A DNA stretch of 64,000 nucleotides from Martelella lutilitoris (GTDB lineage: Bacteria; Pseudomonadota; Alphaproteobacteria; Rhizobiales; Rhizobiaceae). The position numbers were made by a program, and so were the translations under genes. Within the stretch, counting starts at the first letter, position 1, and each line of letters begins with the position of its first letter. The notes below the pieces were generated by a model. It was not told the origin of the DNA. It did no database searches and saw only the letters and a list, made by a program, of their open reading frames with translations. Positions 15,368 to 24,630 of the stretch are shown one piece after another. The DNA is taken from NCBI RefSeq assembly GCF_005924265.1, contig NZ_VCLB01000004.1:310001-374000 (forward strand), read 5' to 3'.

Positions 15368-16681
15368 TCAAAGGCGCGCAAGCCAGGTGGCAATTGCCGG
15401 GAAGGCGACGATCAGCGCCAGCGAGACCAGCATGGCGCCGACGAAGGGCAAGGCACCCCTGAAGATGTCCGAAACCTTCAGCGACCAGTCATTGATCGCC
15501 GATTTGATGATATAGACCGAAAGGCCGAATGGCGGCGTCAGCAGCCCGACCTCGACCGCCACCACGGTCAGCACGCCGAACCAGATCAGGTCGAACCCTG
15601 CGGCCTCCGCGACCGGCAGCGCGATCGGCAACAGGATCAGCATGATCGAGATGGAATCGATCAGGCAACCGAGCGCGATGATCAGCAACAGGTAGAGCAG
15701 CAGGAAGCCGTATGGGCCGAGAGGTCCGGACAGCATCGTCTCCGCCAGAAACCGCGGCACGCCCGAAAGCGCCAGCATGCGGCTGAAAAAGGTTGCCGCA
15801 AGGATCAGGAACAACACGGAAACGGTGATCTGTCCGGTCTCCACCAGGAGGTTCCAGAAGGATCGCGGCGTCAGCGAGCGGCGGAGAAGCGCGATCAAGA
15901 GGGCGCCGAGCGCACCGGCCGCCCCGGCCTCCGTCGGGTTGAGGAAACCGCCATAGAGCCCGCCAAGCACGAGCAGCATGAGGAAGATGATCGGCACCGC
16001 CTTGCGGGCAAGCGCCAGCCAGCCGATCTCCGCGTCGTGGGTTTCCGGCTTTTCCGGCGTGAAGACGAAATCCGGCTTCAGCCATGCCAGCAGGAAGATG
16101 GTGATCGAGAAGGCAACCGCCAGAAGAAGCCCCGGACCGACGCCGGCAAGAAACATCCGCCCGACCGATTCTTCGGCCAGAACCGCATAGACGATCATCA
16201 GCAGCGAGGGCGGGATAAGCATGCCGAGCACGGAGGAGCCGGCAACGACGCCGGTGGCGAATTTGGCCGTATAGCCGTGGCGCGTCATCTCCGGCACCGC
16301 GACCCGGCTGAAAACGGTGGCGGAGGCGATGGAAACGCCGGTGATCGCGGCAAATACGGCGTTGGCGAAGACCGTGGCGATGCCAAGCCCGGCGGTAATC
16401 CGGCCCATCAGCCGCTGGAACACGTCGAACGTATCCTTGCCGACTTTCGAGATCGTCACCAGGAGACCCATCAGCACGAAGAGCGGGACGATGGCGTAGA
16501 GATATTCCCTCAGCGAGTTGTTGGCAACGGCGCCGAGCATGCGCATCGAGACCGTTTCGCCGCGAATGGCGGCAACGCCGATGAAGGACACGAACAGCAT
16601 GCTGACGCCGATCGGCATGCCGACATAGATCAGAACAAGCAGGCCGGCGATCGCCAGGCCTCCGATTTCGAGCGGACTCAT
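15368..16681 (-). CDS. TRAP transporter large permease (DctM)
   Basis: A 437-residue, very hydrophobic DctM-family subunit with 12 or more transmembrane helices. The start is the ATG at 16681 (MSPLEIGGLAIAG), overlapping the DctQ stop by 4 bp (ATGA), so the two are translationally coupled. An upstream in-frame extension inside DctQ is basic and has no membrane character. It is the third gene of a DctP-DctQ-DctM set and imports a carboxylate using an ion gradient. Confidence 0.94.
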   Translation of the reverse strand: MSPLEIGGLAIAGLLVLIYVGMPIGVSMLFVSFIGVAAIRGETVSMRMLGAVANNSLREYLYAIVPLFVLMGLLVTISKVGKDTFDVFQRLMGRITAGLGIATVFANAVFAAITGVSIASATVFSRVAVPEMTRHGYTAKFATGVVAGSSVLGMLIPPSLLMIVYAVLAEESVGRMFLAGVGPGLLLAVAFSITIFLLAWLKPDFVFTPEKPETHDAEIGWLALARKAVPIIFLMLLVLGGLYGGFLNPTEAGAAGALGALLIALLRRSLTPRSFWNLLVETGQITVSVLFLILAATFFSRMLALSGVPRFLAETMLSGPLGPYGFLLLYLLLIIALGCLIDSISIMLILLPIALPVAEAAGFDLIWFGVLTVVAVEVGLLTPPFGLSVYIIKSAINDWSLKVSDIFRGALPFVGAMLVSLALIVAFPAIATWLARL

Positions 16682-17241
16682 GGATGATCTCCGGCGTTTC
16701 GGCAGGCGACAAGATCGCTCACCGCGCGGACGAGAAATTCGAGCGCGGCGACGCTGACGCCGAGGACGATGAAGGCGCGGAACGGCCACACCGGCAGGGT
16801 GGCAATGCCGGTCACCCCGATATATTCGCCGGACGCCCAGTCCTTCTGCAGAATCAGGAAACTCGACCAGGCGATCAGGCCGATCATCGCCGCACCGGTG
16901 AGATTGAAGACTGCCGAAAGGAGGCTGCCGGCCACCGGCCGCTTCAGCCTGAAGGCGGGAAAGAAGATCTCGGTCCGGGCGAGCCTGTCGGCGCGGATGG
17001 TGGTGGCAAGCTGCAACGAGACGATCATCACCAGCAGCAGCGCGCCGAGTTCGGAAACCAGCGGCAGCGACGAGCCCAGCAGGTTGCGCATGAAGATGTC
17101 GGCGGAGATGACCAGCATCAGCACCAGAATGAGCACGGTTCCAAGCGCCGCCAGACCATCGACAAGTATGTGCCAGGTCCGCCCGAGGACTTTCGGCGGG
17201 CGCCCGTCAGGATGACGGGCGCTTTCGGTGGTGGATGACAT
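16678..17241 (-). CDS. TRAP transporter small permease (DctQ)
   Basis: A 187-residue four-helix DctQ-family subunit that joins the large permease. The N-terminus MSSTTESARHPDGRPPK is cytoplasmic and polar, followed by four hydrophobic segments. It lies 9 bp after dctP and overlaps dctM by 4 bp. Confidence 0.92.
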   Translation of the reverse strand: MSSTTESARHPDGRPPKVLGRTWHILVDGLAALGTVLILVLMLVISADIFMRNLLGSSLPLVSELGALLLVMIVSLQLATTIRADRLARTEIFFPAFRLKRPVAGSLLSAVFNLTGAAMIGLIAWSSFLILQKDWASGEYIGVTGIATLPVWPFRAFIVLGVSVAALEFLVRAVSDLVACRNAGDHP

Positions 17242-17250
17242 CGGGCCGCC

Positions 17251-18324
17251 CTACTGGTCCCAGTCGCGCATCGGCGTCTCGCCGCGCTCGCGCAGACCGT
17301 CCATATAGGCGTTTAGGAATTCGCGCGCCGGAAGGCCCTGGGCTTCCAGGTTATCGGCCCATTCGCCGGCAAGGTCCGGCAGCATGGCAACCCAGGCCTC
17401 ACGTTCCTCCTCAGGCATTTCGACGAGGGTCACCGGCGGGTTCTGCTCGGCGCCGAGTTCCACCATCGCCTGAAGGGCAGCCTCATGGCCTTCCAGAAGC
17501 TGCGCGCCGTGGGCGGCGGTGTAATACTTGCCGGCCTCGATCATCGCGTCCTGAACTTCGGTCGGCAGCGTCTCCCAGACATCGCGGTTGATGGCGATCG
17601 CGCCGGAGAAGGACACGGCCGCATCGAAGCGGTTGAGATAGGGCGCGACCTCATAGAGCTTCGCCGGCTTCGCGCCGAGCGCAAGGGTCAGCACGCCGTC
17701 GGAAACGCCGGTCTGGATATCGGTGTAGAAGGTGGTCAGCGCGCCGTCCACGGCATTGGCGCCGGTTCCGCGCAGCCAGGTGCCGAGCACGCCGGGGGCT
17801 GAGATCTTCATGCCGTCGATATCGGCGATGCCCTCGATCGGCTCCTTGGTGTAGATGTCGTACATGTCGGTCCCGGTCAGTCCGAGAACCTTGAGGTTAT
17901 ATTGCTCCCACTCCTCGCGGAAGGCCTCGTTGTTTTCCATCAGGTCTTCCATCACCTCCAGCTGAAGCTGAGGATTGGCGGTGGAGAACGGCGCATAGCT
18001 CGTCGCCTGGCTGAGCGGCAGTTTCGCCGGTTCCAGCAGGGAGAAGACCCAGCCGATATCGGTGATACCTTCCTCGACGGAAGACAGCGTGGCATTCGCC
18101 TTGTAGAGCTGGCCGCCGAAGGCCTCGTTCCAATTGATCTTGTAATCGCCGGTCTCGGCGAGGATCTCGTCGGTCTTCGCCATAAAGTGGGTCTGGATCA
18201 TGCCGACCCACGGGATCACCGTCGGATGGCTGGAGGCCACCGTCAGGTTGATGGTTTCCTGCGCGAACAGCGCCGAGGGCATCGCCACCATGGCGACGGT
18301 CGTCAGTCTCAGAAAATTACGCAT
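17251..18324 (-). CDS. TRAP transporter substrate-binding protein (DctP)
   Basis: A 357-residue periplasmic TRAP binding protein with signal peptide MRNFLRLTTVAMVAMPSALFA. The DctP-fold landmarks GMKISAPGVLGTWLRGTGAN and TFYTDIQTGVSDGVL are visible. The usual substrate-carboxylate Arg probably lies in the former segment. Context with CoA-transferase, lyase and ring-cleavage genes suggests an aromatic or heterocyclic carboxylate as ligand; this is inference. Confidence 0.93.
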   Translation of the reverse strand: MRNFLRLTTVAMVAMPSALFAQETINLTVASSHPTVIPWVGMIQTHFMAKTDEILAETGDYKINWNEAFGGQLYKANATLSSVEEGITDIGWVFSLLEPAKLPLSQATSYAPFSTANPQLQLEVMEDLMENNEAFREEWEQYNLKVLGLTGTDMYDIYTKEPIEGIADIDGMKISAPGVLGTWLRGTGANAVDGALTTFYTDIQTGVSDGVLTLALGAKPAKLYEVAPYLNRFDAAVSFSGAIAINRDVWETLPTEVQDAMIEAGKYYTAAHGAQLLEGHEAALQAMVELGAEQNPPVTLVEMPEEEREAWVAMLPDLAGEWADNLEAQGLPAREFLNAYMDGLRERGETPMRDWDQ

Positions 18325-18348
18325 GTTTTCTCCTCCCGAAAGATGCGT

Positions 18349-18753
18349 TCAGTCGATCACGAATGTCTGTGTGGAATAGTCGAGCCGGACCGAAACCCGG
18401 CCCTCATTGATCATCCAGGGGCGCACCCTGAAACGCCGCGCTCCGGCCTTGTGCATGGGGTCGTTGCGCGCGATCTCGGTTGCCGCTTCCGCGCTTTCGG
18501 CGCGGATGATCACCATGCCCTCGCCCGCCCAGCGCTCGCCGTCATCGGAAAAGAGCGGGCCCGCGGCATAGAGCACCCCGTCGCGTTCCAGCCCGACCTG
18601 GTAGGCGAGATGGGCCTCCATGTTCTCAAACACCGGGCCCATGCCGTTGGTCGCCTCGGTAAAGATGGCGAAGAGCTTCTTCTGCAGCATGGCCTTACTG
18701 GCTTCCATCACGGCTGCCGCCGGAACGGTCTCTGTCTCTTGCATGGCGGTCAC
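18349..18753 (-). CDS. YciI-like protein
   Basis: A 134-residue protein whose central part (about residues 45-120, HLAYQVGLERDGVLYAAGPL through DPMHKAGARRFRVRPW) matches the YciI ferredoxin-like fold with its His and GPL...DP features. YciI-like proteins include a dehydrochlorinase in hydroxyquinol degradation (TftG), so a small ring-modifying or isomerase role is possible here. It sits 32 bp after the CoA-transferase gene and 24 bp before dctP. The ATG at 18744 is an alternative start. Confidence 0.75.
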   Translation of the reverse strand: MTAMQETETVPAAAVMEASKAMLQKKLFAIFTEATNGMGPVFENMEAHLAYQVGLERDGVLYAAGPLFSDDGERWAGEGMVIIRAESAEAATEIARNDPMHKAGARRFRVRPWMINEGRVSVRLDYSTQTFVID

Positions 18754-18785
18754 CTTCTCCTTGTGGCCGTTGCGAAATGCGCCGA

Positions 18786-19931
18786 TCAGCCGGCCTTGCG
18801 GCGGGCGATCTCGGCGCGGATCTCCGCGCCGTGCTGATCAAGCAGCGGCGGTGCGCCGATCTCGGTTTCGACGGCCTCGTCAAAGCTGTAGGGTGGGCGC
18901 ACGGTCTTGGTCTTTCCCTTTTCGGGATGATCCATCTCGACGGCGATCTTCAGGTGCTGCGCCTGCGGATCATCGAGCGCTTCGTCGCTGTCGTAAGCCG
19001 GCGCATGGGGCACGCCGGCCTCAAGCAGCTTCTCACACCAGCTATCACGCGTTTCGGTCTTGAAGACGGGCGTCAGGATGTCGATGAGATCGTCCTGGTG
19101 CTGGATGCGCTCCAGCCGTTCGGCAAAGCGCGGATCATCGGCAAGCCCTTCCTGTCCGGTCGCCTGAAGCAGCCCTTCCCAGAACTTGGCGGGCGAGGAC
19201 ATGTGGATCGCCACCCATTTTCCGTCGGAACACTCGAATGTGTAGCTCTGCGAAACGGTCGGGCGCGAGAGCGGCCCCATGACTTCGCCGACGGCGAAGT
19301 AATGGGTGAAGCTGTCGAGGTTGAAATGGGTCATCGCCTCCAGCATCGAGATATCGATGCGGCGGCCCTTGCCGGTGCTCGTGCGCTCCAGAAGCGCGGC
19401 GAGAATGGCCATGGCGGCGTATTGCCCGGTGAGCGCATCGGCAATCGCCGGCCCGATGACCCGCGGATTGGTCGGCGGCGTCACCAGCCGCAGGAAGCCG
19501 CTGGCCGCCTGGGCCACAGTATCGAATGCCGGGCGGTCGCGCGCCGGACCCGACTGGCCGAAACCGGAGATCGCGCAATAGATCAGATCCGGCTTCACCT
19601 TGCGCAGATCCGCCTCGCCCACGCCGAGCCGCTCGGCAACGCCGGGTCGGAAGTTCTGGATGAACACATCGGCGGTGGAGACGAGATCAAGCAGGAAGGC
19701 CAGTTCGGCCGGGTCCTTGGTGTCGATCGCGATCGAGCGCTTGTTGCGGTTATAGGTCTGGTAGTGCGGCGAATAGAGGCCGCCCTTGAAGGCGCGGAAG
19801 GGATCGCCCGCGCCCGGCCTCTCGACCTTGATCACATCGGCGCCGAGATCGCCGAGATGCATGGCGGCAGCCGGCCCGGTGATATAGGTCCCGAGCTCGA
19901 TAACCCTTATGTCCTTGAGGATCTTGACCAT
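18786..19931 (-). CDS. Class III CoA-transferase (CaiB/BaiF family)
   Basis: A 381-residue CaiB/BaiF CoA-transferase moving CoA between carboxylic acids. The N-terminal GTYITGPAAAMHLGDLGADVIKVERPGAGDPFR is typical. The Asp in PAFDTVAQAASGF is the expected catalytic residue that forms the glutamyl/aspartyl-CoA intermediate. It begins 11 bp after the citryl-CoA-lyase-like gene, implying that the acid activated here is the substrate cleaved there. Confidence 0.93.
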   Translation of the reverse strand: MVKILKDIRVIELGTYITGPAAAMHLGDLGADVIKVERPGAGDPFRAFKGGLYSPHYQTYNRNKRSIAIDTKDPAELAFLLDLVSTADVFIQNFRPGVAERLGVGEADLRKVKPDLIYCAISGFGQSGPARDRPAFDTVAQAASGFLRLVTPPTNPRVIGPAIADALTGQYAAMAILAALLERTSTGKGRRIDISMLEAMTHFNLDSFTHYFAVGEVMGPLSRPTVSQSYTFECSDGKWVAIHMSSPAKFWEGLLQATGQEGLADDPRFAERLERIQHQDDLIDILTPVFKTETRDSWCEKLLEAGVPHAPAYDSDEALDDPQAQHLKIAVEMDHPEKGKTKTVRPPYSFDEAVETEIGAPPLLDQHGAEIRAEIARRKAG

Positions 19932-19942
19932 GCGGTTTCTCC

Positions 19943-20749
19943 CTATTCCGCGTTCTTGTTCTTGGGCTTCTCGCCGTCATATTCGATCGCGAGATCGGCC
20001 TTGTGCGACATGATGAAACCGATGGAACGCCGGCTCTCCTCCAGAAGATGCGCGGAAAGACCGGCTGTGCGGGCGAGAATGGGCACGGCCTTCAACGCGT
20101 CGACCGGCCAGCCGGCATCAAGGATCGTTGCCGGGATGGCGCCGGACACATTGATCGGCAGCGGACGGTTGACGATCTTGGGCGCGACATCCGCAAGCAC
20201 ACGAAGCGCTTCGATATGGCGGCCGGTAATCCCCTCCTCGTCGGCGATTGCGAGCAGCCTGTTGGCGCGCGGATCGCCGCCGGAATGCTGGGGATGGCCG
20301 AGGCCCGGCACCTTCCGGCGATCGGCCTTGAGCTGGGTCACGGCCTCCGTTGCCGCTTTTTCGATATCGCCGCCCATCTTGTCTGCAGCCTCGACAACGC
20401 AGACGAGAAAGCGGCCGGCCTGTTCCGAAGACCCGGCAACCACGCTGCCCATGCCGAGAATGCCGGCCGCCATCGCGCCCTGCCAGGCATCGGGTCCCGC
20501 GGCAAGCGTCATGCGCGCGGCCTGAACACTTGGAACCAGACCATGCTCGGCAATGGCGACAAGGCAGGAATCCATCATGCGGCGCTGGGCGGCATTCGGC
20601 TTTTCACCGGTGACGAGAAGCCAGAAATAGTCGCTGAAATCGATCTTGCCGATCAGGTCGTTGCACAGGTCATGACCGCGCACTGTGATGCTTTCGGCAT
20701 CGGATTCAGCAATTGCGGTGAAGGCGCCGTCTTGTTTTCCAATTCGCAC
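19943..20749 (-). CDS. Citryl-CoA lyase-like protein (citrate synthase family)
   Basis: A 268-residue protein of the citrate synthase superfamily, shorter than citrate synthase and resembling stand-alone citryl-CoA lyase-type proteins. It carries SITVRGHDLCNDLIG and GLGHPQHSGGDPRANRL, the expected active-site His region. The start is proposed at GTG 20749 because GGGAG lies 6 bases upstream and homologous N-termini begin at about IGKQD. A longer ATG start at 20836 would run through the probable operator. Expected reaction: cleavage of a tertiary-hydroxy acyl-CoA into acetyl-CoA or a related ester and an oxoacid. Confidence 0.83.
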   Translation of the reverse strand: MRIGKQDGAFTAIAESDAESITVRGHDLCNDLIGKIDFSDYFWLLVTGEKPNAAQRRMMDSCLVAIAEHGLVPSVQAARMTLAAGPDAWQGAMAAGILGMGSVVAGSSEQAGRFLVCVVEAADKMGGDIEKAATEAVTQLKADRRKVPGLGHPQHSGGDPRANRLLAIADEEGITGRHIEALRVLADVAPKIVNRPLPINVSGAIPATILDAGWPVDALKAVPILARTAGLSAHLLEESRRSIGFIMSHKADLAIEYDGEKPKNKNAE

Positions 20750-20761
20750 AACAAACTCCCT

Positions 20762-20776
20762 TTTCGGTATGCGAAA
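20762..20776. promoter_or_regulatory. Candidate IclR operator
   Basis: TTTCG-GTATG-CGAAA is a perfect 5-5-5 inverted repeat just upstream of the lyase ribosome binding site, in the gap between the divergent lyase and IclR genes. A further CGAAA half-site is at 20791-20795. It is a natural target for the adjacent IclR protein. Confidence 0.5.
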
Positions 20777-20973
20777 TAATTTCCTCTTGCCGAAATCGTA
20801 GAGAGCAATTAGTCTAGCGTCAAGTTGAAAGCGCAATGCCCGGTCAGGAGGATCGGCAAGCCGCCTTCATCGGGAGGAAGATCAGGTCCCGTACGGAGGG
20901 AATGAGCCTTGTTTTCATTACGCGGCTCACTCACTCTGGCGCCTTAGGGATCTTGTTCTTGAGGAAAACTGAC

Positions 20974-21795
20974 GTGGCTGAAATTCTGAAGATCGTCGAA
21001 GAGAGCGACAGGCCTGCCGAATTCGTGGAGGCGCTTGCCAAGGGGCTTGCGATCCTCGAATGCTTCGACGCCGCCCATTCCGAGATGACGCTGAGCGAGG
21101 TGGCGCGCCGCGTCGGCCTTTCGCCGGCAGCTGCCCGCCGCAGCCTGATCACGCTGCAGACGCTCGGCTATGTCGGCCAGACCAACAAGCATTTTCACCT
21201 GCGTCCCAAGGTGATGACGCTGAGTTCGGCCTTTTATTTCTCCGCCCATATCGACGAAGTGCTGCAGCCCAATCTGAGGGCGCTGGTCGAACAGTTCGGC
21301 GACGCGTCTTCTGTGGGCACGCTGGACGGCGACCATGTGATCTATGTCGCCCATGTCTCTGTGCAGCGGGCCCGCCGCGCCGCCGCCGTCATCGGCGCGC
21401 GCTATCCGGCAGGCGCCACCTCGCTCGGCCGCGTGCTTCTCGCCGGGCAGTCCGACGAGGCGCTGGAACATTACCTTCAGACGGCGAAACTCGAGGCGCT
21501 CACCTCCAAGACCGTGACCGATCCGGAGGTTCTGCGCCAAAAGATCATGGCCGTACGGGCCGATGGCTTCGCCACGACCGTCGACCAGCTCGACTACGGC
21601 ATCACCGCGCTTGCGGTTCCGATCAGGAATTTCGAAGGCCGCACGATCGCGGCGCTCAACACCTCGGGCTACACCGGCATGGTGACGCCCGAAAGCATGA
21701 TCGCGGAACGACTACCCGCGCTCAGGGAAGCGGCATCGCATATCGCGCATGCCATGAGCCGGTATCCGGTTCTGCAATCGACAATGGGAACCTGA
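20974..21795 (+). CDS. IclR family regulator (PcaR/PobR-like)
   Basis: A 273-residue IclR-family regulator. A winged helix-turn-helix (about residues 20-80, MTLSEVARRVGLSPAAARRSLITLQTLGYV) precedes the IclR effector domain with YPAGATSLGRVLLAG. The helix-turn-helix and AARR signature resemble the aromatic-acid subgroup (PcaR, PcaU, PobR), often activators. The start is GTG 20974, preceded by GAGG at 20961-20964; in-frame codons reach back to 20836 but lack support. It lies between two divergent catabolic gene sets and probably controls both. Confidence 0.9.
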   Translation: MAEILKIVEESDRPAEFVEALAKGLAILECFDAAHSEMTLSEVARRVGLSPAAARRSLITLQTLGYVGQTNKHFHLRPKVMTLSSAFYFSAHIDEVLQPNLRALVEQFGDASSVGTLDGDHVIYVAHVSVQRARRAAAVIGARYPAGATSLGRVLLAGQSDEALEHYLQTAKLEALTSKTVTDPEVLRQKIMAVRADGFATTVDQLDYGITALAVPIRNFEGRTIAALNTSGYTGMVTPESMIAERLPALREAASHIAHAMSRYPVLQSTMGT

Positions 21796-21838
21796 CCGAA
21801 GGACAGGATTTCCGCGCAGGTTCAAGGGAGGAGAAACC

Positions 21839-23311
21839 ATGTGCAGGCTTTGTGACATTTCCAGGCGCCATCTGCCCTACCCGAACTTCGGGCCCACGGG
21901 CGGCGGCATGGGAGCAGCGGCCCACACCACGCCGGTTGCCGAAGGTGTTCCGGAAGCATGCGGCCGTGAAGGCCAGCGCACGCTGATCAAGAACGGCATT
22001 ATCCTCTCCATGGACGACAGCGTCGGCGACTTCAAAAAAGGCGATATCCTGATCGAGGGAACGCGCATCATCGAAATTGCGGAAACCATTTCTGCGGACG
22101 ACGCCATCGTCATTGATGCGTCCGGCAAGATCGTCATGCCCGGCTTCATCGACACGCATCATCATCAGTTCGAGACCGCGCTGCGCGGTCAGCTCGCAAA
22201 CGCCATCCTCATCAATGACGGCCTGCCGGCGAACGCTCAGAACTATTACGAGAGCGTGCTGCAGTCCTTCTCCCTCGTCTACCGGCCGGAAGACGTCTAC
22301 ATCAACGAGCTTTTCGGCGCGCTGTCGCAGCTCGATGCCGGGGTGACGACGGTGATGGATGTCAGCCAGATCCATCACTCTCCGGCCCATTCGGATGCGG
22401 TGATCTCGGCGCTGAAGGATTCGGGCCGGCGCTCCGTCTTCGGCTATTTCGAGGGCTGGGGCGACGACGCGCAATATCCGGGCGACGCGGCGCGGCTGCG
22501 CGAACAGTATTTCTCATCGAACGACCAGCTCATGACCATGATCATGGGTGGCGAGATTTACCTGCCCTTCCATGAACAATCCTGGAAGGCCGGGCGCGAC
22601 CTGGATCTCCCGATCGCGCTGCATGTGGTCGGCACGTTCGGCATGCAGCCGACCTTCGACGGGCTTGGCGCGGGCGGCGCGTTCGGCGAAGACAATATCT
22701 TCATCCACATGACCGGCATGTCGGACGACGGCTGGAAATATGCCCGCGACGCCGGCGCCCATATCTCGCTGTCCGTTCCGATCGAGATGCAGATGCGCCA
22801 CGGCACGCCGCCGATCCAGAAGGCGCTCGACTATGGCATGAGCATTTCGCTCTCCACCGACGTCGAATGCACGATGACAGCGGACTTCTTCACCCAGATG
22901 CGCGCCATGGTGACCCTGCAGCGCATGTTCGCCAACGAGAAGGCGCTTGCCGGCGAGGAATACCCGGCGCTTCTGACGGCGCGACAGGCGATCCGCGCGG
23001 CAACGTTTGGCGGCGCGGAGGGCCTGAAGCTCGACCGCCGCACCGGCTCGCTGACGCCGGGCAAGGATGCCGACATCATCCTGCTCGACGCCGAGGCGCT
23101 CAATGTCGCGCCGCTCAACAACGTGCCCGGAACGGTCGTCACCCTGATGGAGCGCTCGAATGTCGACAGCGTGCTGGTGGCCGGCAAGGTGCGCAAATGG
23201 CAGGGCAAGCTCGTCGGCGCCGACATCGCCCATCTGCGCGGCGAACTGGAAAAAAGCCGCGACTACATTTTCGAAAAGGCTGGCATCGCCCGTTCGCTGT
23301 TCGGCGACTGA
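21839..23311 (+). CDS. Amidohydrolase/deaminase (SsnA/TrzN-like)
   Basis: A 490-residue metal-dependent amidohydrolase. Ligand regions are all present: DTHHHQFET (HxH), HVVG, HMTG and STDVE (Asp). The beta-sandwich halves sit at both ends (RTLIKNGIILSMDD and LTPGKDADIILLD). This class includes chlorohydrolases and deaminases of N-heterocycles and guanine derivatives. The start has a strong GGGAGGAG site, so the extra N-terminal 40 residues, beginning MCRLCD and rich in Gly and Pro, are probably real and unusual. Located between an IclR gene and an extradiol dioxygenase. Confidence 0.85.
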   Translation: MCRLCDISRRHLPYPNFGPTGGGMGAAAHTTPVAEGVPEACGREGQRTLIKNGIILSMDDSVGDFKKGDILIEGTRIIEIAETISADDAIVIDASGKIVMPGFIDTHHHQFETALRGQLANAILINDGLPANAQNYYESVLQSFSLVYRPEDVYINELFGALSQLDAGVTTVMDVSQIHHSPAHSDAVISALKDSGRRSVFGYFEGWGDDAQYPGDAARLREQYFSSNDQLMTMIMGGEIYLPFHEQSWKAGRDLDLPIALHVVGTFGMQPTFDGLGAGGAFGEDNIFIHMTGMSDDGWKYARDAGAHISLSVPIEMQMRHGTPPIQKALDYGMSISLSTDVECTMTADFFTQMRAMVTLQRMFANEKALAGEEYPALLTARQAIRAATFGGAEGLKLDRRTGSLTPGKDADIILLDAEALNVAPLNNVPGTVVTLMERSNVDSVLVAGKVRKWQGKLVGADIAHLRGELEKSRDYIFEKAGIARSLFGD

Positions 23312-23401
23312 GGCCCGGCCGGAAACGAGGAAATGGCGCCCGCGATGACCCTTTATTGAGGGCGCGCGGGCGCGAGAGGACATCCGCAAGAGGAGAGAGC
23401 A

Positions 23402-24262
23402 TTGGCAAAACTCGTTGCAACACTGGCGTCGACCCACCATCCCTTCTATCTGAAGGCCACGACAGCGCCGCCCGAACAACAAATGCCCGAGGCGCCGACA
23501 TGGAAGCGCAAGATCGAGGCTTACCGGGAAACGCTGGCAAAGGCGGAGCCGGACGTGCTGGTGATGGTCGGCTCCGACCACTTCCACCAGATCTTCCTCG
23601 ACAACTGCCCGCAATTCCTGATCGGCAAGGCGGAGCGCTATGACGCGACCTTCTACAATGAGGAACGCGAATTCGGCATTCCGAAATATGTGCTGGAAGG
23701 CGACGAGGCGATGTCGCGCTTCATGCACCAGCACCTGATGAACCAGAATTTCGATTTCGCCTTTTCAAACGAGCTGAAAATCGACCATTCCATCATCTGC
23801 CCGATCATCACCGTGCGGCCTGAGAACGACCTGCCGGTCGTGCCGATCTACACAAACATCTTCGCGCCGCCGCTGCACACCCCGAAGCGGTTCTATGAAG
23901 TCGGGCGCGCGATCCGCAAGGCGATCGACGACTACCCGTCCGACAAGCGCGTTGCCGCCATCGGCACCGGGCATCTGTCGCTCGAGCTCGGCGGCCCGCG
24001 CCAGTTCATGGAAACGGGGCCGGATCCGGTTTTCGACCGGCAGGCGATCGAATGGCTGAAGAGCGGCGATATCGACGCGATCCTCGAAAACGTCACCCAT
24101 GAGAGCATGGCCCGGAGCGGCAATGCCACCCATGGCTTCCTGAACTTCATCCTGATGCTTGGCGTGGCCGGTCCGGAAGGGGCGGACTATGTCGACAATC
24201 TCGACCTGTTCCACACCATGGAAGCCTATTTCACCTGGTATCCGAAGGAGGAAGCGGCATGA
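23402..24262 (+). CDS. Extradiol dioxygenase catalytic subunit (LigB-like)
   Basis: A 286-residue member of the LigB (type II) extradiol ring-cleavage family, like protocatechuate 4,5-dioxygenase beta. Fe(II) ligand candidates are His in STHHPF (near residue 12) and GSDHFH (near 60), plus the conserved NELKIDHSIICP block (near 125), and GTGHLSLELGG (near 194). The start is TTG at 23402 with GAGGAGAG directly upstream. It overlaps the alpha-subunit gene by 4 bp. Confidence 0.9.
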   Translation: MAKLVATLASTHHPFYLKATTAPPEQQMPEAPTWKRKIEAYRETLAKAEPDVLVMVGSDHFHQIFLDNCPQFLIGKAERYDATFYNEEREFGIPKYVLEGDEAMSRFMHQHLMNQNFDFAFSNELKIDHSIICPIITVRPENDLPVVPIYTNIFAPPLHTPKRFYEVGRAIRKAIDDYPSDKRVAAIGTGHLSLELGGPRQFMETGPDPVFDRQAIEWLKSGDIDAILENVTHESMARSGNATHGFLNFILMLGVAGPEGADYVDNLDLFHTMEAYFTWYPKEEAA

Positions 24263-24630
24263 GCAAATATTACGTCAATAAGTTTCTCTACACGGTCGAC
24301 CGCGACCCGGAACTCTTGCAGCGCTATATCGACGAACCGCGCACCTTCGTCGCCACCTGGGAACAGTCGATCGGCCCGAAGCTTCTGGGCAATGAGGTCG
24401 AGGCCTCCACCGTCCACGCCCTGACCCATGAGGAGCGAGAGGCGCTGATCAACCATGATTATGTGGCGCTGTTCGAGATGGGCGCGCATTTCTTCCTCAA
24501 CCTGACGATCTTCATCGGCATCTATGACGAGCCCTATATGAGCAGGACCGGCCCGCTGTCGTTCCAGCGCGAAATGGCCGCTAGATTGCAGCACTGGCGC
24601 GACAAGGACTATCCGTCGGTCGAGACCTGA
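24259..24630 (+). CDS. Extradiol dioxygenase small subunit (LigA-like)
   Basis: A 123-residue all-helical LigA-like small subunit, the partner that caps the LigB active site. The ATGA overlap with the LigB-like gene implies coupled, stoichiometric synthesis. The gene order (large then small) is reversed relative to the classical sphingomonad ligAB. A terminator follows at 24666. Confidence 0.87.
   Translation: MSKYYVNKFLYTVDRDPELLQRYIDEPRTFVATWEQSIGPKLLGNEVEASTVHALTHEEREALINHDYVALFEMGAHFFLNLTIFIGIYDEPYMSRTGPLSFQREMAARLQHWRDKDYPSVET

Follow-up and report, generated by a model that had tools for sequence, protein, structure and literature searches.

The locus described here, which lies in a 64-kb window of Martelella lutilitoris DNA (the whole stretch of 64,000 nucleotides that was analysed), probably imports and opens an aromatic compound and finishes its breakdown by an unusual route. 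The gene set is one system, co-conserved across two phyla: a class III (CaiB-type) CoA-transferase (CaiB), a citryl-CoA-lyase-like enzyme (CCL), a LigB-fold protein (LigB*) and a LigA-like small partner are encoded together in 65 of 80 loci of LigB* relatives, in Alphaproteobacteria and Actinobacteria. As a whole, the proposal is a single IclR-controlled system in which a hydroxyquinol-type ring would be opened, its fission product hydrated and activated with CoA, and the acyl-CoA cleaved by CCL to acetyl-CoA and an oxoacid; a probability of roughly 40% is assigned to this reading.

Gene content and co-conservation

All ten genes named in a first-pass annotation are present in the window (Table 1), and the layout that it described, an IclR gene between a leftward and a rightward set, was confirmed. 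Gene ends were taken from the list of open reading frames and starts from the annotated homologue in Martelella mediterranea; DctQ and DctM are named from that homologue, and the Pfam scan covered the other eight proteins. The M. mediterranea homologue of the YciI-like gene is shorter by 6 bases. The 107-nt inverted repeats flanking the locus were considered as its boundary and rejected, as this repeat is genome-wide.

Table 1. Features of the locus and their positions in the 64-kb window
Feature	Positions	Strand	Basis
DctM, TRAP transporter large permease	15368-16681	-	start and name from M. mediterranea homologue
DctQ, TRAP transporter small permease	16678-17241	-	named from M. mediterranea homologue
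DctP, TRAP substrate-binding protein	17251-18324	-	PF03480
YciI-like protein	18349-18753	-	PF03795 (YCII)
CaiB, class III (CaiB-type) CoA-transferase	18786-19931	-	PF02515 (CoA_transf_3)
CCL, citryl-CoA-lyase-like enzyme, subfamily PRK06224.1-5	19943-20746	-	Pfam Citrate_synt; NF004868
Operator-like palindrome TTTCG-GTATG-CGAAA, presumed IclR site	20762-20776	no strand	pattern conservation
Second conserved element next to the palindrome	20779-20796		
IclR regulator, PcaR/PobR type	20974-21795	+	PF01614, PF09339
Amidohydrolase, PRK08204 subfamily	21917-23311	+	Amidohydro_1; NF006056
LigB*, LigB-fold protein, presumed ring-opening enzyme	23402-24262	+	PF02900
His191 codon of LigB*	23972-23974	+	place counted from gene start
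Gly245 codon of LigB*	24134-24136	+	place counted from gene start
LigA-like small partner subunit	24259-24630	+	present in 80/80 loci; model weakly resembles DesB

From 475 relatives in GTDB genome contigs, 80 loci were retained and their flanks scanned for up to 10 kb per side. The LigA-like gene is present in all 80, CCL in 66, CaiB in 65 (always accompanied by CCL) and an IclR gene in 62. An amidohydrolase gene occurs in 53 loci, at 60% identity or more in 41 and at 29-36% in 12. CaiB with CCL is found in all 11 actinobacterial contig loci and also in records of Rhodococcus and Nonomuraea. By these counts, both halves of the locus are co-conserved, and the reservation of the first-pass annotation that they might not be falls away. 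No CCL was found within the scanned flanks of 14 of the 80 loci, and in just four of these is a flank shorter than 10 kb. In place of CCL, eight or more of the 14 carry genes of P450, alpha/beta-hydrolase or FAH type, so that the fission product may be processed in more than one way. FMN-reductase-type genes are present in 36 of 88 LigB* loci. In some relatives, the locus has a further gene for a hydroxylase, an esterase, a P450 or a MetE-like protein, an indication that several precursors may lead to one hydroxyquinol-type ring. A protein labelled 'uroporphyrinogen decarboxylase' in locus L014 was considered as a corrinoid demethylase and rejected, since it resembles the C-terminal half of MetE.

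Regarding regulation, the IclR protein scores 252 bits against TIGR02431, below the NCBIfam cut-off of 285. The gap between the IclR and CCL genes contains the palindrome TTTCG-N5-CGAAA, the sole such site in the window. This pattern is present in all 34 divergent IclR/CCL gaps (shuffled mean, 0.03 loci) and is presumed, from its conservation, to be a candidate IclR site. It is also located ahead of DctP (L014), ahead of LigB* (L059, L063 and L015) and ahead of CCL (L078). Just 12 of the 43 differently arranged loci scanned contain the pattern, in some cases far from relevant genes, and none of the actinobacterial or Burkholderia loci scanned does.

The citryl-CoA-lyase-like enzyme

CCL matches the NCBIfam citryl-CoA lyase model NF004868 with 312 bits (cut-off, 193), against at most 59 bits for citrate-synthase models. 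Its closest solved chain is the citryl-CoA lyase 6hxp (E 3.6e-28), with which it has GxGH, DPR and AHxxEE (His and two Glu) in common in the alignment; we take these to be the His and acidic positions that are conserved in the lyase domain. On these scores and this nearest chain, CCL was rejected as a citrate or methylcitrate synthase, which disposes of the first-pass concern that the lyase-like protein might be such an enzyme of central metabolism. It is also very improbable that CCL is a citryl- or citramalyl-CoA lyase of central metabolism with incidental neighbors; the nearest solved chain is a citryl-CoA lyase, and copies such as that in L167 have no tested partner gene adjoining, but 66 of the 80 loci have CCL in the vicinity of LigB*, and there is a shared operator-like site. 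In L164, CCL and CaiB are found beside a protocatechuate 4,5 cluster; as this locus holds LigK as well, CCL was rejected as a replacement of the LigK aldolase.

A LigB-fold protein with an altered metal site

Extradiol dioxygenases have a textbook two-His-one-carboxylate iron site. LigB* matches the family model PF02900 with 110 bits, and its predicted model superposes on DesB and LigAB with a Foldseek TM of 0.84. Judging from the alignment, the two-His-one-Glu triad of type III (LigB) extradiol dioxygenases is absent. The position of the Glu ligand (DesB Glu239) is Gly245 in LigB* and Gly in 89 of 89 aligned rows, and that of the canonical base, which we take to be LigB His195, is Leu194 (Leu in 88 rows, Asn in one). 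His12, His60 and His129 are invariant and retained from LigAB and DesB (GalA), whereas His191 is a new histidine, likewise invariant in the 89 rows. That both residues are lost and His191 is gained appears from these alignments to be new in a LigB-fold clade. A three-His metal site may be supposed, in which His12 and His60 are kept and His191, at a strand end, is likely the third ligand. The first-pass view of LigB* as a plain LigAB-type extradiol dioxygenase finds no support, as both residues are replaced.

The LigA-like protein (123 aa) may correspond to the LigA cap or domain of LigAB and DesB. In contrast to these, its gene is located downstream of LigB*, and it has no Pfam or NCBIfam family match at E 0.001; DesB accounts for each of the five top-ranked PDB folds matched by its model, with weak E-values of 0.19-1.9. 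The genome of the window carries a canonical LigB-family gene elsewhere (L002).

LigB* might be no dioxygenase at all, acting as a metal hydrolase, a lyase or a structural subunit while another enzyme opens the ring, or with no ring involved. Related 2-aminophenol dioxygenases include subunits without metal, and the replacements at the Glu and base positions would suit such a protein. However, the invariance of His12, His60, His129 and His191 implies that a metal site is probably retained, and a known ring-opening family takes the place of LigB* in L163 (see below); this alternative is considered unlikely.

PydA, the 3-hydroxy-4-pyridone dioxygenase of Rhizobium, is a LigB-family (Pfam02900) enzyme according to two reports (PMC7356986, PMC3637104). 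Its primer motifs are given as DDHFENH and EWICGM (PMC3637104), whereas LigB* reads SDHFHQ and THGFLN, a comparison made at the level of motifs. Set against these two reports, both motifs and gene sets differ, and the mimosine/3-hydroxy-4-pyridone (PydA) and 4-hydroxypyridine (KpiC) pathways were rejected.

Intradiol enzymes in related loci

In one genome (G689, locus L163), the same operon is found with CCL, CaiB, YciI, TRAP, IclR and amidohydrolase genes at 57-77% identity and the palindrome pattern immediately ahead of CCL, and an intradiol enzyme stands in for LigB* and the LigA-like partner. This genome has no LigB relative at E 1e-5, and it is the only one in which the swap is clean and the rest of the operon matches. 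DctP has homologues in two loci with an intradiol dioxygenase, at 71% identity (L163) and 51% (L201). Two intradiol enzymes were compared with solved structures: that of L163 scores 196-218 bits against hydroxyquinol dioxygenases and at most 135 against catechol dioxygenases, and that of L184 scores 228-298 and at most 111 bits, respectively. By these scores, both are assigned to the hydroxyquinol 1,2-dioxygenase type, which points to a 1,2,4-trihydroxylated ring and away from the aminohydroxybenzoate, pyridine-acid or gallate substrates proposed initially. An orcinol-type substrate was set aside as a chemical guess for which a literature search gave nothing.

Intradiol genes were detected in none of 88 LigB* loci (tblastn, E 1e-12) and in just six of the 28 examined CCL loci that have no LigB* (L163, L165, L182, L184, L201 and L202). 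L184 presents a row of intradiol, CCL, MhpA-type hydroxylase, CaiB, LeuC and LeuD genes, and L182 contains CCL, intradiol, CaiB, HMG-CoA-lyase-like and LeuC genes. L165 carries, besides its intradiol gene, an iron-dependent alcohol dehydrogenase (Fe-ADH) gene resembling maleylacetate reductase, so its intradiol enzyme may serve the ordinary hydroxyquinol pathway. A glyoxalase/dioxygenase-superfamily protein is encoded near CCL in L203, L204, L205, L207 and L208.

This variety could be explained if CaiB and CCL preceded ring opening, shortening a side chain that bears a tertiary beta-hydroxy group before whichever ring enzyme is present opens the aromatic. CCL near LigB*, near intradiol genes in six loci, near glyoxalase/dioxygenase genes in five and beside the protocatechuate 4,5 cluster of L164 would fit such an order, as would the 14 loci with LigB* and LigA-like genes and no CCL. 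On the other hand, LeuCD and the hydroxylase in L184 would be expected for a fission product more than for a side chain, and the replacement in L163 retains the same transporter and regulator, which makes a side-chain function rather unlikely.

Ordinary extradiol and intradiol cuts of hydroxyquinol break different bonds; hence, either LigB* is unusual or its ring differs. LigB* could represent a new dioxygenase class with a LigB fold and a three-His site, cutting a triol ring at the bond used by intradiol hydroxyquinol dioxygenases. Its product would then enter a CoA-dependent lower pathway, as yet undescribed, with a final cleavage of the citryl-CoA-lyase type; this full combination is unlikely.

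The amidohydrolase

The amidohydrolase scores 415 bits against NF006056 (cut-off, 391), and its five metal ligands are kept in all 54 aligned rows. Ring deaminases of the TrzN/SsnA type have a Glu three residues past the strand-5 His. This position is Gly239 here, with Gly in 51 of the 54 rows and Gln in three, which counts against the hydrolytic deamination or dechlorination of the first-pass annotation despite the kept metal ligands. The route proposed there, in which an N-heterocyclic or amino-aromatic acid is deaminated and then cleaved by an ordinary extradiol enzyme, is quite improbable. Among solved structures, 8-oxoguanine deaminase and atrazine chlorohydrolase do belong to its nearest relatives; however, no amidohydrolase was found within the scanned flanks (up to 10 kb) of 27 of the 80 loci, that of 12 others is distant (29-36%), and LigB* departs from the canonical extradiol enzymes. 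In favor of the route, an amidohydrolase-family protein of Arthrobacter is reported to open 3,4-dihydroxypyridine (PMC7356986).

Proposed pathway

In the preferred hydroxyquinol-type pathway, the TRAP transporter would import an aromatic acid or phenol, and different precursors would feed one 1,2,4-trihydroxy ring, perhaps methyl-substituted, to be opened by LigB* with its LigA-like cap. The fission product would be hydrated, in relatives by a LeuCD-type hydratase. Of 88 LigB* loci, only three (L016, L083 and L091) have LeuD nearby, and LeuC was not found in any; the genome of the window has two Aconitase_C matches, neither of them on its contig, so that a dedicated LeuD is not apparent in that genome. 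The CaiB-type enzyme would load CoA onto the resulting hydroxy acid, and CCL would split the acyl-CoA to acetyl-CoA and a 2-oxoacid. If the ring bears a methyl group, citramalate could be the final acid and would yield acetyl-CoA and pyruvate. The amidohydrolase and the YciI-like protein may have roles in the pathway as well. The outline given by the first-pass annotation is supported: under one IclR regulator, it combines a transporter and an enzyme of ring-opening type with activation by CoA and cleavage of a C-C bond by CCL.

Several known systems are similar in part. The related operon in which LigB* gives way to an enzyme of hydroxyquinol-dioxygenase type recalls the hydroxyquinol pathway, but LigB* loci have CaiB and CCL instead of an intradiol gene, and a CaiB-CCL route would replace the usual maleylacetate-reductase route. 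An Fe-ADH gene was found near CCL in one of six genomes checked (G860), and the Fe-ADH matches of the window's genome are off its contig. The protocatechuate 4,5 pathway (LigABCIJKU) also employs a LigB-fold enzyme with a LigA-like partner. LigK with OMA tautomerase was detected in one of 88 other LigB* loci (L047; tblastn, E 1e-12), and for the window itself no open reading frame for either was seen by eye in the list for 12-28.5 kb, in agreement with the earlier suggestion of a lower pathway other than LigI/J/K. Citryl-CoA lyase (6hxp) and citramalyl-CoA routes share the CCL subfamily and a CoA-transferase, which here stand beside ring-opening-type genes. Literature searches mostly outside subscription journals (listings, together with PMC7356986, PMC3637104 and PMC2864759) gave no account of either this gene set or a LigB enzyme without the Glu ligand.

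The LigB* clade, in which a carboxylate is lost and a histidine gained elsewhere in the fold, together with its intradiol stand-in, offers natural proteins with which the determinants of intradiol versus extradiol cleavage can be tested. Through the CaiB-CCL module, genera from marine and rhizosphere habitats and from the Actinobacteria would have a lower pathway for aromatic rings in common, and many genes annotated as 'citryl-CoA lyase' would gain a function.

Gene content and recurrence of the locus

All ten genes that the first-pass annotation had placed at this IclR-controlled locus were found, with gene starts set by the annotated plasmid copy of Martelella mediterranea, whose LigB is 97.6% identical to that of the window. 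The window belongs to a 4.45-Mb genome, on the contig designated C13. A 107-nt sequence flanks the locus as inverted copies that are 93% alike, and since it has 46 matches genome-wide, 41 of them of at least 90 nt, it is a dispersed repeat.

Features of the window (positions in the window)
Feature	Start	End	Remarks
Gene locus	15368	24630	DctM, DctQ, DctP, YciI-like, CaiB, CCL (-); IclR, amidohydrolase, LigB*, LigA-like (+)
107-nt repeat, first copy	11684	11790	inverted relative to second copy
107-nt repeat, second copy	24876	24982	
Operator-like site	20762	20776	TTTCG-GTATG-CGAAA, CCL/IclR gap, 15 bases upstream of CCL start
Region beside the locus	25000	27032	by eye, ORF resembling unsaturated-glucuronyl hydrolase and second ORF resembling IclR-type regulator

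When GTDB genome contigs were scanned with a LigB profile, 475 relatives came up; the 80 best were retained, and neighboring genes were counted in fetched DNA of up to 10 kb per side of each locus. A LigA-like gene is present in 80/80 loci, the citryl-CoA-lyase-like enzyme (CCL) in 66, the class III CoA-transferase (CaiB) in 65, IclR in 62, and the amidohydrolase in 53 (41 at least 60% identical to that of the window, 12 at 29–36%). The recurrent set is CaiB-CCL-LigB-LigA, with CaiB and CCL jointly in 65 of the 80 loci. Gene order varies among groups (the transporter is TRAP or branched-chain ABC, and the position of IclR shifts), yet the set is found in Alphaproteobacteria, in records of Rhodococcus and Nonomuraea, and in 11/11 contig loci from Actinobacteria, which include Arthrobacter and Microbacteriaceae. 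In the 66th CCL locus (L020, Marinicella sp. W31), CaiB is fragmented across different frames. L020 is otherwise near-identical to the locus of the window (LigB 96%); DctM and DctQ also match only as fragments in separate frames, and the reading frame of the amidohydrolase continues into LigB, disruptions that represent either broken genes or assembly errors.

CCL was not found in the fetched DNA of 14 of the 80 loci, for four of which the sequence on one side is shorter than 10 kb; at least 8 of the 14 bear P450, alpha/beta-hydrolase or FAH-type genes. Rhizobial LigB*-LigA loci with no CCL or CaiB in the fetched DNA are L013, L015, L025, L052-L058, L064, and L084; P450, GMC oxidoreductase, M20 peptidase or FAH-type genes are neighbors in several of them, and L015 has a VirA-like sensor and cytochrome c peroxidase.

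Probable metal site of LigB*

In the alignment with DesB, the iron ligand Glu239 is matched, with no gap, to Gly245 of LigB*, the LigB-fold protein of the window. Across 89 rows (the window, 80 contig loci, and 8 plasmid loci, among them the distant relative L019), His at 12, 60, 129, and 191 and Gly at 245 are invariant, and position 194, the site of the canonical base His, holds Leu (88 rows) or Asn (one row). A wider alignment of 56 rows, with some places repeated, contains Glu245 in 41 rows, none with His191, and Gly245 in 8, all with His191; the remaining 7 are unreadable at 245 or have another residue there. Ser191/Leu194/Glu245 occurs in two distinct sequences (three rows, as L011 and L109 are the same place). 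These relatives, L011 (genome G174) and L105 (Ochrobactrum quorumnocens), retain the Glu ligand together with Ser191 and Leu194, and are possible evolutionary intermediates. In a tree of 42 rows, from which repeats and the most divergent rows were excluded, the residue-swapped proteins cluster together (99/96), with the intermediates as their neighbors (93/87); deep placement is unsure, since long branches join in places. Because the swapped proteins group together, the Glu-to-Gly/His191 swap probably arose once rather than several independent times. The predicted fold of LigB* (pTM 0.88) matches DesB and LigAB (TM 0.84), and a three-His metal site is plausible in this model, since His191, like His12, comes immediately after the end of a strand.

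Operator-like site

The pattern TTTCG-N(4-6)-CGAAA is present in 34/34 divergent gaps (the window and 33 loci; shuffled mean 0.03 loci); these loci are kin, though the rest of the gap is poorly conserved. No further such site was found within the 64-kb window. Among 43 scanned loci of other arrangement, the pattern was found in 12 and not in 31. It lies before DctP (L014), LigB (L059, L063, L015) or CCL (L078, L163), and elsewhere, partly distant from relevant genes, in L018, L066, L071, L164, L208, and L210. The site is evidence for coordinated control in some members of the family, and we infer that IclR binds the palindrome.

An intradiol dioxygenase in place of LigB*

The operon of genome G689 (locus L163) resembles that of the window (CCL 76%, CaiB 77%, YciI 65%, DctP 71%, DctQ 57%, DctM 74%, IclR 69%, and amidohydrolase 71% identity); an intradiol dioxygenase gene adjoins IclR, the sole operator-like site of the stretch lies directly before CCL, and no LigB relative was found in the genome (E 1e-5). 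From three CCL hit sets, 28 CCL loci without LigB* were examined: 11 of 17 places outside the genome of the window, 11 of 12 in the second set (the twelfth, L210, has LigB*), and 6 plasmid records picked from a listing of 104. An intradiol gene is present in six of them (L163, L165, L182, L184, L201, and L202) and was found in none of the 88 LigB* loci; L201 also has the TRAP system in common (DctP 51%). Comparison with solved structures, covering L163 and L184, gave 196–218 and 228–298 bits against hydroxyquinol dioxygenases, and at most 135 and 111 against catechol dioxygenases, respectively; both proteins are far closer to the former.

Other CCL neighborhoods include an RLHHTA-motif protein (L164, L203, L204, L205, L207, and L208), which in L203 belongs to the glyoxalase/dioxygenase superfamily, the nearest PDB entry being named only 'Glyoxalase'. 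CCL and CaiB occur together with it in L203, L204, L205, L207, and L208. L203 also bears genes for MetE-like proteins, GMC oxidoreductase, P450, and a metallo-beta-lactamase fold (Pfam), and L204 has the same complement by likeness of ORFs. Cupriavidus metallidurans CH34 (NC_007974.2) has CCL relatives at three places (52% identity), which are probably catabolic. The genome paper (PMC2864759), by contrast, states that this strain has no citryl-CoA synthetase and lyase acting together.

Proposed pathway

The first-pass annotation had proposed hydrolytic deamination by the amidohydrolase, and the active site of this enzyme speaks against it. In 54 rows (the window, L163, and 52 of 53 contig loci, L020 being omitted as its frame runs on into LigB), the ligands His81, His83, His236, His264, and Asp315 are invariant, and position 239, where a ring deaminase would have its Glu, has Gly in 51 rows and Gln in the other 3. 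Hydrolysis of a lactone, an ester or a C-C bond is a more likely role for this enzyme than deamination.

On a Burkholderia glumae plasmid (L184), genes for intradiol dioxygenase, CCL, MhpA-type hydroxylase, CaiB, LeuC, and LeuD run in one direction; Cupriavidus pBB2 (L182) carries CCL, AMP ligase, and intradiol dioxygenase and, past IclR and LysR genes, CaiB, an HMG-CoA-lyase-like gene, and LeuC. In the simplest chain, a hydroxylase would act before ring opening, the ring-opened product would be hydrated to a tertiary hydroxy acid, CoA would be transferred onto this acid, and the lyase would split the CoA ester into acetyl-CoA and an oxoacid. A methyl-substituted hydroxyquinol would lead to citramalate via steps of known type. 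LeuD lies near LigB* in 3 of 88 loci examined, all three actinobacterial. Because neither of the two Aconitase_C matches in the genome of the window is on the window's contig, hydration there would depend on a housekeeping enzyme or an unknown one. Genes of the Fe-ADH family, to which maleylacetate reductase belongs, were not found on this contig and lie near CCL in one of six genomes checked (G860).

No account of the CaiB-CCL-LigB*-LigA gene set was found in full-text literature, a scope covering few subscription journals. We rate LigB* as a divergent LigB-superfamily enzyme with a putative CoA-dependent lower pathway.
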